Source of the DNA: Nesterenkonia sp. E16_10
GTDB lineage: Bacteria > Actinomycetota > Actinomycetes > Actinomycetales > Micrococcaceae
Reading direction: 5' to 3'
Assembly (NCBI RefSeq): GCF_017347085.1
Contig: NZ_JADPSA010000016.1
Span: 62,001-126,000 of the forward strand
Length of the DNA: 64,000 bases
Shown here: positions 38,437-41,003 of the stretch, piece by piece
Layout of the letters: each line of letters starts with the position of its first letter
Position numbering within the stretch: the first letter of the stretch is position 1
Notes under the pieces: model-generated
The model's input: only the letters and a program-made list of their open reading frames with translations
Database searches by the model: none
Told to the model about the DNA's origin: nothing
Made by a program: the position numbers and the translations under genes

Positions 38437-39054
38437 TCAGCTGCGGGTGATCCGCAGCAGCCGAAAGCCCTTCGCGGTCTCGGCGCGCCCGCTCCGGAAC
38501 TCTCCGGCGACGCCGGCGAGCATCGTGGAGATCCAGGACAGCAGCGAGTCTGCCCCGAGGTTCTTCTGGACCACCAGCCAGGCCTCGCCCCCGGAGCTCA
38601 GCCGCGGCAGCCAGTGCTCCAAGATCCCGTGAAGCACCTCCTTGCCCACACGGATCGGAGGATTGGACCAGATGGTGTCGAACTCGATGTCCTGGGGCAC
38701 CTCCTCGGGCGCCAGCACCCGCAGGTTGCTCAGGCCCAGCGCCGCCGCGTTCTCCGCACACAGGATGCGAGAACGTTCATTGACGTCCACCGCCCAGACC
38801 GTGGCTTCCGGAGAGCGCATCGCGAGAGTCAGCGCCAACGGACCCCAGCCACATCCGATGTCGAGCAGGTGGCCCTGGGCGGCCGGATCCGGAGCATGCT
38901 TGAGCAGCACGGCCGTGCCCTTGTCCACGCCATCGGGGGAGAAGATCCCCCCGGCGGTGGACACGGAGACCTCGCTGCCGCCCAGGGTGACGCTCATGGA
39001 TCGGCGGGTGAAGGGCCCCTCGGGGGAGGCGGAGAAATAATGCTGGGAGTTCAC
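38437..39054 (-). CDS. RsmC-like class I SAM methyltransferase (MTS domain)
   Basis: A methyltransferase of about 205 residues. SAM motif I is LLDIGCGWGPLALTLA, the acidic end of strand 2 is WAVDVNER, and the catalytic NPPI motif lies in DTIWSNPPIRVGKEVLH. NPP[FYI] and the MTS layout match the RsmC/RlmG group of 16S/23S rRNA guanine-N2 methyltransferases, in the single-domain form. GTG 39054 is chosen because a TACGAT -10 lies 7 nt upstream (leaderless) and the residues before it look non-coding. Confidence 0.88.
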   Translation of the reverse strand: MNSQHYFSASPEGPFTRRSMSVTLGGSEVSVSTAGGIFSPDGVDKGTAVLLKHAPDPAAQGHLLDIGCGWGPLALTLAMRSPEATVWAVDVNERSRILCAENAAALGLSNLRVLAPEEVPQDIEFDTIWSNPPIRVGKEVLHGILEHWLPRLSSGGEAWLVVQKNLGADSLLSWISTMLAGVAGEFRSGRAETAKGFRLLRITRS

Positions 39055-39061
39055 AGGGTGA

Positions 39062-39074
39062 ATCGTAGTAGACT
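39062..39074. promoter_or_regulatory. Back-to-back divergent -10 elements (methyltransferase and hflX leader ORF)
   Basis: On the minus strand TACGAT (39067-39062) is 7 nt from GTG 39054. On the plus strand TAGACT (39069-39074) is 7 nt from ATG 39082. A single base separates the hexamers, so each promoter's -35 region lies over the other gene's start. Confidence 0.5.
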
Positions 39075-39081
39075 CATGCGC

Positions 39082-39120
39082 ATGTGGATTCACCTGACGT
39101 ACTCCCGCCCGCGCGGTTGA
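39082..39120 (+). CDS. Putative leaderless 12-residue leader peptide upstream of hflX
   Basis: A 12-codon ORF (MWIHLTYSRPRG) whose ATG lies 7 nt after TAGACT. Two other genes in the window (the MarR gene and moeA) have the same hexamer at the same spacing. Arg-Pro-Arg near the end matches the Arg/Lys-X-Arg/Lys pattern known for macrolide-dependent ribosome arrest. It lies 257 nt upstream of hflX, with hairpins in between. Existence as a translated peptide is inferred from position and promoter; a chance ORF is possible. Confidence 0.4.
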   Translation: MWIHLTYSRPRG

Positions 39121-39139
39121 GTCACCCCTTCGCCATCTG

Positions 39140-39158
39140 GTCGGCTCGCTGAGCCGGC
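39140..39158 (+). other. Hairpin 1 in the hflX leader
   Basis: An 8-bp stem (39140-39147 with 39151-39158, one G-T) with a 3-nt loop, 19 nt after the small ORF stop. Confidence 0.5.
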
Positions 39159-39202
39159 AGTGCCGTTCGACGCCGACGCCGCGCGTCCGCCGGACTGCGC
39201 CG

Positions 39203-39229
39203 TCTCGGATCCCTCCTGCGGATCCGGGA
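39203..39229 (+). terminator. Hairpin 2 in the hflX leader, possible attenuator
   Basis: A 10-bp stem (39203-39212 with 39220-39229, one T-G) around a 7-nt loop CTCCTGC. No T tract follows. It lies between the small ORF and the proximal hflX promoter. Confidence 0.45.
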
Positions 39230-39298
39230 ACTGGCCGAACGGACACCATCCACACCCCCGGACAAGTCCCGCCCGATCTCCAGAGCCGCCCCGCACAC

Positions 39299-39327
39299 TT
39301 AACCGTGTCCAGGGTCGAACGTAGGAT
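39299..39327 (+). promoter_or_regulatory. Proximal hflX promoter
   Basis: TTAACC (39299-39304), a 17-nt spacer and TAGGAT (39322-39327). Transcripts from here would have a leader of about 45 nt containing a GGGCCAG/CTGGTCC hairpin (39346-39352 with 39361-39367) just before the AAGGAG ribosome site. Confidence 0.5.
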
Positions 39328-39377
39328 GGAGATCCACGACGGGCAGGGCCAGCCCGAAAACTGGTCCTAAGGAGATC

Positions 39378-41003
39378 ATGACCAAGCAGAAGCACACGCC
39401 CGCACCTTCCGGGGAGACCCCGGAGGACGCCACGACGCCGGCCGCCGAGCAGTCCTCCGTCGATGCGACCATCGAACGGATCCTCGCCGCTGATCGCGCA
39501 CGCGAAGACGCGCCGAAACGGACCACCCGCTTCGAGGCTGACTCGAGCTTCAAACGCCGCGGCATCCTGGGCGAACAGGCCCGCGAGATCGCCGGTGAGA
39601 CCGCGCACTCCGAGTCCGACGGCGAGCAGTTCGAGCTCATGGAACGCCGCTCGCTGCGCCGCGTCGATGGGCTCTCCACCGAGCTCGAGGATGTCTCCGA
39701 AGTCGAGTACCGGCAGCTGCGCCTGGAGCGCGTGGTGCTCGCCGGGCTCTGGGGCGAGGGAACCGTCGCCGAGGCAGAGTATTCGCTGCGCGAGCTCTCC
39801 GCCCTCGCGGAGACCGCGGGCTCCACGGTGCTCGACGGCTTCCTGCAGCGCCGTGCCAAGCCCGATCCGGGCACCTTCTTCGGCTCCGGCAAGGCCGAGG
39901 AGATCCGCGTGGCCGTGGCCGACCTCGGTGCCGACACCGTCGTGGTGGACTCCGAGCTCGCCCCCTCCCAGCGCCGTGGCCTCGAGGACATCGTCAAGGT
40001 CAAGGTCATCGACCGCACCGGGCTGATCCTGGACATCTTCGCCCAGCACGCGAAGTCTCGGGAAGGCAAGGCCCAGGTGGAGCTGGCCCAGATGGAGTAC
40101 ATGCTTCCCCGGCTGCGCGGCTGGGGCGAATCGCTCTCCCGGCAGGCCGGCGGCCAGGTCGGCGGCGCGAGCGCCGGCATCGGATCCCGCGGTCCCGGTG
40201 AGACCAAGATCGAGCTCGATCGGCGCCGGATCAACGCGCGCATGGCGAAGCTGCGCAAGGACATCGCGGCGATGAAGCCGGCCCGCGATGCCAAGCGGGC
40301 CAACCGCAAGCGCAATGCCGTGCCCTCCGTCGCGATCGCCGGGTACACCAACGCGGGCAAGTCCTCGCTGTTGAACCGGCTCACCGACGCCGGGGTCCTG
40401 GTGGAGAACGCCCTGTTCGCCACCCTCGACCCCACCACCCGTAAGGCCGTCACTCCCGATGGGATCGGCTACACGCTTTCGGACACCGTCGGCTTCGTCC
40501 GGCAGCTGCCCACGCAGCTGATCGAAGCCTTCCGCTCGACCCTGGAGGAGGTCGCTGATGCCGACCTCATCCTGCACGTGGTCGACGCGTCGCACCCCGA
40601 GCCCGAGAGCCAGATCAGCGCGGTGCGCACCGTGCTCGCCGAAGTGGACGCCCACGAGGTCGATGAGGTCATCGTGCTCAACAAGGCCGACGTCGCCGAC
40701 TGGGACGTGGTGGAACGCATTCGTCGTCGTGAACCGCACACCATCGTGGTCTCGGCCCACTCCGGGCAGGGGATCGAGGAGCTGCGCGAACTGATCAGCA
40801 GCTCCATCCCGCGGCCCAGCGTCCCACTGGAGCTGATGGTGCCCTACGCCCAGGGCGACATCGTCTCCCGGCTCCACGCCGAGGACGCCGAGATCCTCTC
40901 CACCGAGTATCAGGAGGAGGGCACCCTGCTGAAGGTGCTGGTCCGCCGAGAACTGGTGGGAGATCTCGCCGAATTCCAGGTCAAGGCAGAGCCGACGCCT
41001 TGA
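39378..41003 (+). CDS. hflX: GTPase HflX
   Basis: A 541-residue ribosome-associated GTPase that splits stalled or hibernating ribosomes; homologues contribute to macrolide/lincosamide tolerance. The N-terminal HflX domain (about residues 105-300, with FFGSGKAEEIR and GAGETKIE-type GPGETKIELDRRRI) is followed by the G domain: G1 GYTNAGKSSLLNRL near residue 320, then DTVGFVRQLP and NKADV. An acidic N-terminal extension of about 100 residues is present. TTGA overlap joins it to dinG. Confidence 0.95.
   Translation: MTKQKHTPAPSGETPEDATTPAAEQSSVDATIERILAADRAREDAPKRTTRFEADSSFKRRGILGEQAREIAGETAHSESDGEQFELMERRSLRRVDGLSTELEDVSEVEYRQLRLERVVLAGLWGEGTVAEAEYSLRELSALAETAGSTVLDGFLQRRAKPDPGTFFGSGKAEEIRVAVADLGADTVVVDSELAPSQRRGLEDIVKVKVIDRTGLILDIFAQHAKSREGKAQVELAQMEYMLPRLRGWGESLSRQAGGQVGGASAGIGSRGPGETKIELDRRRINARMAKLRKDIAAMKPARDAKRANRKRNAVPSVAIAGYTNAGKSSLLNRLTDAGVLVENALFATLDPTTRKAVTPDGIGYTLSDTVGFVRQLPTQLIEAFRSTLEEVADADLILHVVDASHPEPESQISAVRTVLAEVDAHEVDEVIVLNKADVADWDVVERIRRREPHTIVVSAHSGQGIEELRELISSSIPRPSVPLELMVPYAQGDIVSRLHAEDAEILSTEYQEEGTLLKVLVRRELVGDLAEFQVKAEPTP

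Follow-up and report, generated by a model that had tools for sequence, protein, structure and literature searches.

A candidate ribosome-sensing attenuator with a leaderless mini-ORF upstream of hflX in Nesterenkonia

In Listeria monocytogenes, the hflX homologue hflXr (lmo0762) is preceded by the rli80 leader, in which a short open reading frame (ORF) of 14 codons with an Arg-x-Arg motif (RLR) takes part in RNA pairing and is combined with an intrinsic terminator; the available part of that report describes mutations of the start codon and of the pairing that alter induction (PMC6310831). A second described arrangement, uORFC-6-1, places an upstream ORF (uORF) with RLR before hflX, mainly in Bacillales, together with a covarying RNA structure that, in the portion of the source available, lies wholly 3' of the start codon (PMC8632094). 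Macrolides and ketolides arrest ribosomes at +x+ motifs, and in ErmDL and the other +x+ erm leader peptides the trigger would be stalling while x occupies the P site, although the gene controlled there encodes a methyltransferase and a leaderless ORF goes unmentioned in the accessible part of that article (PMC8298421). Among actinobacteria, mycobacterial hflX is tied to the antibiotic response through the transcription factor WhiB7, and the main text of the review concerned, as far as available, speaks of no uORF, leader or attenuation (PMC12493154). Here we describe the region upstream of hflX, which encodes a ribosome-rescue factor, in a 64,000-nucleotide stretch of Nesterenkonia sp. E16_10 (hereafter the window, numbered from its first letter), in which an apparently leaderless mini-ORF of 12 codons overlaps conserved RNA structure.

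Like the Listeria and Bacillales leaders, this one combines an Arg-x-Arg ORF before hflX with predicted RNA pairing. Unlike the Listeria design, its ORF lies at the transcript start predicted from the −10 element, no terminator was found in the window, and many relatives have only 5–7 codons; it is set apart by description from uORFC-6-1 in that the pairing called P1 includes the start region (at genus level), the motif is RPR, the ORF is apparently leaderless, and the host belongs to another phylum. Since a defining feature of each (the terminator, or a structure wholly behind the start codon) is missing from the hflX leader, we assign it to neither class. As for the erm leaders, the shared feature is a +x+ motif in a short leader, where stalling in Nesterenkonia is a prediction. 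The element holds up, its conservation extends far past the window, and attenuators of this kind are already known; among the matches listed from the open-licence literature, no description of a leaderless, very short, RNA-overlapping hflX leader in Actinobacteria was found. One of these searches carries little weight, since the matches listed included no hflX paper.

Our comparisons suggest, with a probability of about two in three, that hflX is governed by an attenuator that senses ribosomes, probably of the macrolide type, and that the leader is read by those held up on the leaderless ORF. Across the sequences compared, promoter spacing, the ORF, its +x+ motif and a hairpin, P2, are conserved, and the P1 strands vary jointly across the genus; what we infer is where the transcript starts, that the ORF is translated, that a drug stalls its ribosomes, and in which direction and at which level, transcription or translation, the response acts. 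A ribosome would start at the 5' end of the transcript and translate the mini-ORF, and in unstressed cells quick completion of the ORF would let the leader RNA fold into P1 and P2. A macrolide-type drug would instead hold the ribosome, in the window most likely while Pro10 occupies the P site and Arg11 is next to enter, and the held ribosome would keep the ORF single-stranded, melt P2 and alter the downstream fold. Drug-stalled ribosomes on the mini-ORF would thereby probably raise HflX production. If true, this would bring leader-peptide control of hflX to a second phylum, with leaderless ORFs of 4–15 codons in place of the terminator-linked design of Listeria, in a compact system where the same codons serve as arrest peptide and as regulatory RNA strand, and it might connect leaderless starts with ribosome splitting.

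A conserved, apparently leaderless mini-ORF

Judged by its HflX, the host is a Nesterenkonia whose nearest named relative is Nesterenkonia aurantiaca (100% in the best segment). The initial annotation had noticed TAGACT-N7-ATG opening a 12-codon ORF, MWIHLTYSRPRG; the arrangement is there (Table 1), and aligned relatives share the ORF, its position relative to the −10 and its Arg-x-Arg codons, with conservation at the codon level. The alignment of the window clade holds eight leaders from nine genomes, L022 being omitted (HflX 99.6% identical). Within it the MWIHLTYSRPRG ORF has a single variable site, which is synonymous, the TAGACT −10 is identical, and the 7-nucleotide (nt) spacer before the ATG occurs in seven forms. 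A near-invariant ORF beside a variable spacer would be expected of a transcript that has its start at the ATG. The −10 spacing likewise suggests that the distal-promoter transcript starts at the A of the ATG, and both features would fit a leaderless mRNA, that is, a start codon at or near the transcript start. A generic sigma-70 scan of the window region detected neither the distal nor the proximal promoter; the evidence for both is therefore the conservation of their −10 elements.

A leaderless mini-ORF lies 5' of hflX in all 30 Nesterenkonia genomes searched. It begins with ATGTGG in 27, in 26 of them behind TANNNT and in one (L030, its arrangement read from L056 of the same species) behind GATACT; two of the other three encode MKIWARTxFxRLRG and the third MRLYRI. 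When loci were scanned for TANNNT-N6..8-ATG/GTG opening an ORF of 4–16 codons at most 600 bp 5' of the hflX match start, 29 of the 30 were positive, against a single reverse-strand locus and a shuffled count of 0.5, and two of the 29 also held a second TANNNT-type ORF. The same scan was positive at 23 of 62 hflX loci from other Micrococcaceae (5 on the reverse strand, 3.7 shuffled). Genome-wide, 25 of 34 matches to the leaderless pattern ATGTGGAT in the same 30 genomes lay at hflX. The nine matches elsewhere showed no excess over the 15 of a reversed control pattern, and a genome-wide regulon of MWI leaderless ORFs is unsupported, these matches being within the control level.

The encoded peptides fall into two classes. 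Short ones (5–7 residues, two with 4) include MFLIFE, MLIFL, MTLFFV, MTYLFFV and MWIYFI, and after the initial Met their fraction of Ile, Leu, Met, Phe, Val, Trp and Tyr is 0.72, against 0.195 (standard deviation (sd) 0.035) in random windows (29 loci, repeated peptides included). Erythromycin-resistance E-peptides, considered as a model for this class, were set aside, the literature matches listed offering nothing of use. Class B comprises peptides of at least 12 residues and five Actinomyces-type 7-mers, and [RK]-x-[RK] occurs in 18 of its 21 distinct members compared with 4.1 by chance (sd 1.8, maximum 12 in 2000 draws), a count that depends partly on manual sorting since the 7-mers were assigned by likeness. 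The motif has Pro, Leu, Ile or Met at its centre, with RPR, RLR, RIR and RMR in differing sequence contexts, and one genome has Arg-Pro-Lys, the second-position Arg changed to Lys (codon AAA). That other lineages retain the motif while its codons and central residue differ (RLR, RIR, RMR, RPK) would be expected of a macrolide-arrest leader. In the window, the RPR motif is of a type known to arrest ribosomes with drug, and a short ORF with codon-level conservation 5' of a rescue gene is a feature of leader-peptide attenuators.

A WhiB7-dependent promoter carries an AT-rich element just 5' of the −35, conserved with the promoter. Activation of hflX by a WhiB7-type factor would draw on the mycobacterial link between hflX and whiB7 (PMC12493154) and on AAATAAT at 39035–39041, which had first been put forward as such an element. 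However, this heptamer consists of His-Tyr-Phe codons of the divergent methyltransferase gene, its position inside coding sequence having been recognized from the start, and the 60 nt before the ORF lack both AAATAAT and AAATAGT in 8 of 28 Nesterenkonia leaders (L030, L031, L033, L034, L043, L046, L047 and L050). We reject the element, and consider a WhiB7-activated promoter extremely improbable.

RNA structure and pairing of the ORF

The P2 hairpin lies 3' of the mini-ORF in most Nesterenkonia. It was aligned separately, over 20 of the 30 loci, because a 13-leader alignment misplaces L034; the omitted leaders are near-duplicates (L022, L023, L024, L026, L027, L029), have long loops (L046, L047) or an unclear 5' side (L050), or are L045. 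In these 20 hairpins 98.8% of cells are paired versus 90.4% in shuffles, the covariation score is 0.252 versus 0.096, and both sides have changed in 14 cells versus 4.3 (0 of 500 shuffles in each case). A model of P2 also matches L179, from another genus, immediately 3' of its mini-ORF (E = 0.005), while the remaining eight matches in 78 sources are weak (E at least 0.19); L189 has a minimal GCTCCCGTTGAGC 3' of its mini-ORF, a weak match at E = 3.1. Applied to the window's own genome, the model gave no match, the known site included, which makes that search uninformative.

P1 joins the start of the ORF to a strand 3' of P2, and its partners in the genus include CGAAUCC for AUGUGGAUUCG, GCCCAGA for AUGAAGAUCUGGGC at an equal distance 3' of P2, and CAUGAUCCGCAU for AUGUGGAUCAUG. 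The two strands vary jointly across 26 of the 30 Nesterenkonia loci (L022, L027, L029 and L045 left out): matched pairs exceed permuted ones with P = 0.0001, and with P = 0.002 over 11 distinct ORF starts. Shuffles of single leaders gave weak to moderate values (p = 0.005–0.61; Fisher chi-square 126.7 with 52 degrees of freedom, the leaders not being independent). Within the window clade P1 is near-invariant, so that the eight leaders show zero covariation there. An additional ATCCAC lies at 39332–39337, just 3' of the proximal −10, and TCCACA is repeated near the P3 block (Table 1) in L026–L029; the ORF start therefore has several possible partners.

In lineages other than Nesterenkonia, pairing of the mini-ORF with the ribosome-binding site (RBS) of its own next gene is stronger than with those of other species (mean −14.4 versus −12.7 kcal/mol, P = 0.0026, 30 loci), using gene starts chosen by script and by eye, with some uncertainty for L060, L202 and L216. 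The strongest cases are Galactobacter L068, Actinomyces L125, and in addition L174, L178, L179, L188 and L191 (ranks 1–4 of 30). In the Actinomyces-type leaders L125, L127 and L270, the Arg-Met-Arg codons, CGUAUGC(G), are by eye complementary to (C)GCAUACG directly 5' of the Shine-Dalgarno sequence; a ribosome arrested there would therefore expose that site. Pairing between the ORF strand and the RBS in Actinomyces, Galactobacter and some further Micrococcaceae genera points to translational attenuation in those lineages.

Alternatively, P1 and P2 could belong to a noncoding 5' leader that acts through its structure, like a riboswitch or by binding a protein; the +1 ATG and the short frame would then be incidental. 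The covariation score of P2, the joint variation of the P1 strands and the nearly frozen synonymous sites of the window ORF would suit such a leader, and the invariant CUCC..GGU(U/C)GAG resembles a recognition element. However, the position set by the promoter is occupied by ATG or GTG in two families although the sequence that follows differs greatly (in a search that required ATG or GTG), and the stop falls at a median of 6.5 codons in frame 0 versus 24.5 and 35 in the other frames (46 distinct ORFs), a difference biased by the required frame-0 stop within 26–31 codons. The +x+ content and hydrophobic composition of the peptides are, furthermore, far from random, and we regard a purely noncoding leader as quite unlikely.

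The conserved sequence might alternatively act at the DNA level alone, as a promoter or operator or through DnaA-box-like TCCACA repeats. TCCACA-like sequence is repeated in the clade, and in MT-type leaders of other genera an inverted repeat spans the −10 and ATG, but neither TTATCCACA nor TTGTCCACA, which we take as the box consensus, occurs exactly on either strand of 39061–39380. The 5' and 3' arms also change together between species and the composition is frame-specific, which makes a DNA-level explanation very improbable.

Weighing the attenuator

The attenuator idea of the initial annotation thus gains P2 covariation and a genus-wide pairing of the ORF start, but no terminator accompanies it: no hairpin followed by a T run was found in the window at 38950–39480. 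Several further observations count against the reading of the leader as a drug-responsive attenuator. P1 is not significant in the window alone (p = 0.26) and is missing from the single-sequence minimum-free-energy fold of the window leader; shuffling the first 20 nt was no worse than shuffling control segments (mean z −0.56 versus −0.73 and −0.56; 46 leaders shorter than 330 nt), and a 30-nt duplex energy test was mostly null. In the P2 alignment, pairs changed on both sides (2 versus 1.6) and pair types (5 versus 5.0) show no excess over shuffles. With its P site at codon 10, a ribosome would melt P2 yet leave the 5' strand of P1 largely uncovered; arrest within the first codons, unlike arrest at codon 10, would open P1. 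Pairing of the ORF with the RBS is at chance within Nesterenkonia (P = 0.97, 24 loci), for which we reject it as a universal mechanism, and reaches P = 0.058 over all 54 loci together.

The distribution adds to these points. Such an ORF was absent within 600 bp at 39 of the 62 loci of other Micrococcaceae, and the scan was at chance level in the Actinomyces bowdenii family (3 of 50 loci versus 1 reverse and 2.6 shuffled) and at a further 57 hflX loci (3 versus 2 and 2.2). The +x+ motif is absent from 3 of the 21 class-B peptides and from 24 of the 25 distinct short ones, where MKNK is its sole carrier, and the peptide counts are uncorrected for shared descent, for which none of the tests makes full correction.

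This scarcity in short peptides is what one would expect if the mini-ORF sensed the general state of ribosomes (initiation or early-elongation arrest, idle 70S ribosomes) and not a macrolide-type arrest peptide, with +x+ a lineage-specific trait. Since P1 covers the start-codon region, it would be opened by whatever ribosome sits at the start, and 70S ribosomes can start leaderless messages, according to the available part of one source (PMC6897966). However, the longer and Actinomyces-type peptides mostly keep +x+ while codons and middle residues differ, and we judge a general sensor unlikely.

A broader and speculative proposal, which we hold to be doubtful, is that in Actinobacteria leaderless hflX mini-ORFs of 4–15 codons sense their occupancy by whole 70S ribosomes. 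Surplus or drug-held 70S ribosomes on the 5' AUG would open P1 or the RBS and induce HflX, their splitting factor, with the arrest motif of some lineages supplying drug specificity. The proposal is motivated by the ability of leaderless starts to use undissociated 70S ribosomes, the substrate of HflX. If true, a factor that splits ribosomes would be regulated through a loop that senses its substrate directly.

Further features of the locus and related leaders

Table 1. Features of the hflX leader region, in window positions
Feature	Position	Strand	Remarks
Divergent methyltransferase gene	from about 39054 (predicted start codon)	-	Pfam MTS, 8.8e-30; about 27 bp from the leader ORF
Distal (leader) promoter −10, TAGACT	39069..39074	+	7 nt 5' of ATG at 39082
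Leaderless 12-codon ORF, MWIHLTYSRPRG and stop	39082..39120	+	one peptide shared by 9 genomes; leaderless start predicted from −10 spacing
P1 5' strand, TGTGGAT	39083..39089	+	inside ORF start
P2 hairpin, (A/G)CUC-CCG..CGG-U(U/C)-GAG(U/C)	39101..39122	+	overlaps last ORF codons in window clade
Arg-Pro-Arg, codons 9–11	39106..39114	+	+x+ type arrest motif
Second clade hairpin	39140..39158	+	93.8% of cells paired in 8 leaders; zero pairs changed on both sides, no covariation
P1 3' strand, ATCCACA	39248..39254	+	55/56 cells paired in 8 leaders
Block CAAG(U/C)CCCGC, proposed P3 5' strand	39263..39272	+	conserved in alignments; by-eye pairing with CGGGC 39340–39344, near Shine-Dalgarno
Proximal hflX promoter −10, TAGGAT	39322..39327	+	TAGGAT in 7/8 clade leaders, TAGAAT in 1
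P4 hairpin, GGGCCAG-N8-CTGGTCC	39346..39367	+	just 5' of hflX Shine-Dalgarno
hflX Shine-Dalgarno	39369–39374	+	
hflX	39378..41003	+	541 residues; Pfam GTP-bdg_N, GTP-bdg_M, MMR_HSR1

Two hairpins had been noted between the ORF and hflX, and both are in the window. The stem at 39140–39158 is kept in the eight clade leaders, but the one at about 39203–39229 is not conserved, its region being absent from four of the eight. P4 shows no covariation because its stem is invariant in the eight leaders. An Rfam search of 38900–39500 returned one chance-level match, to another family on the minus strand (12 bits against a gathering threshold of 37.8).

The proximal promoter was initially taken to confine the leader to part of hflX control. 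This holds for the window, where it would yield leader-independent transcripts, but the proximal-promoter block is present in 16 and absent from 14 of the 30 Nesterenkonia loci; in these 14, where another promoter is possible, most transcription may come from the leader promoter.

Five of the six positive loci outside Micrococcaceae form a self-similar Actinomyces-type set (MWILRMR, MWIFRMR, MWNLRMR, MWISRMR and MWITRMP). In L062 (Micrococcus terreus), a leaderless MWIFLR mini-ORF lies 832 bp 5' of the hflX match, beyond the 600-bp count, and L189 and L193 have four-codon leaderless ORFs, MANK and MKNK, 5' of hflX. By eye, an extra ORF appears between leader and hflX in L179, L188, L191 and L192; the leader may therefore govern an operon there with hflX as a later gene. 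In several Micrococcaceae genera, MT-type leaders (L063, L068, L161, L163, L198, L201, L212 and others) show, again by eye, an approximate inverted repeat, AGTGATAGAG-TTTT-CTCTATGACT, over promoter and start codon, which is possibly an operator.

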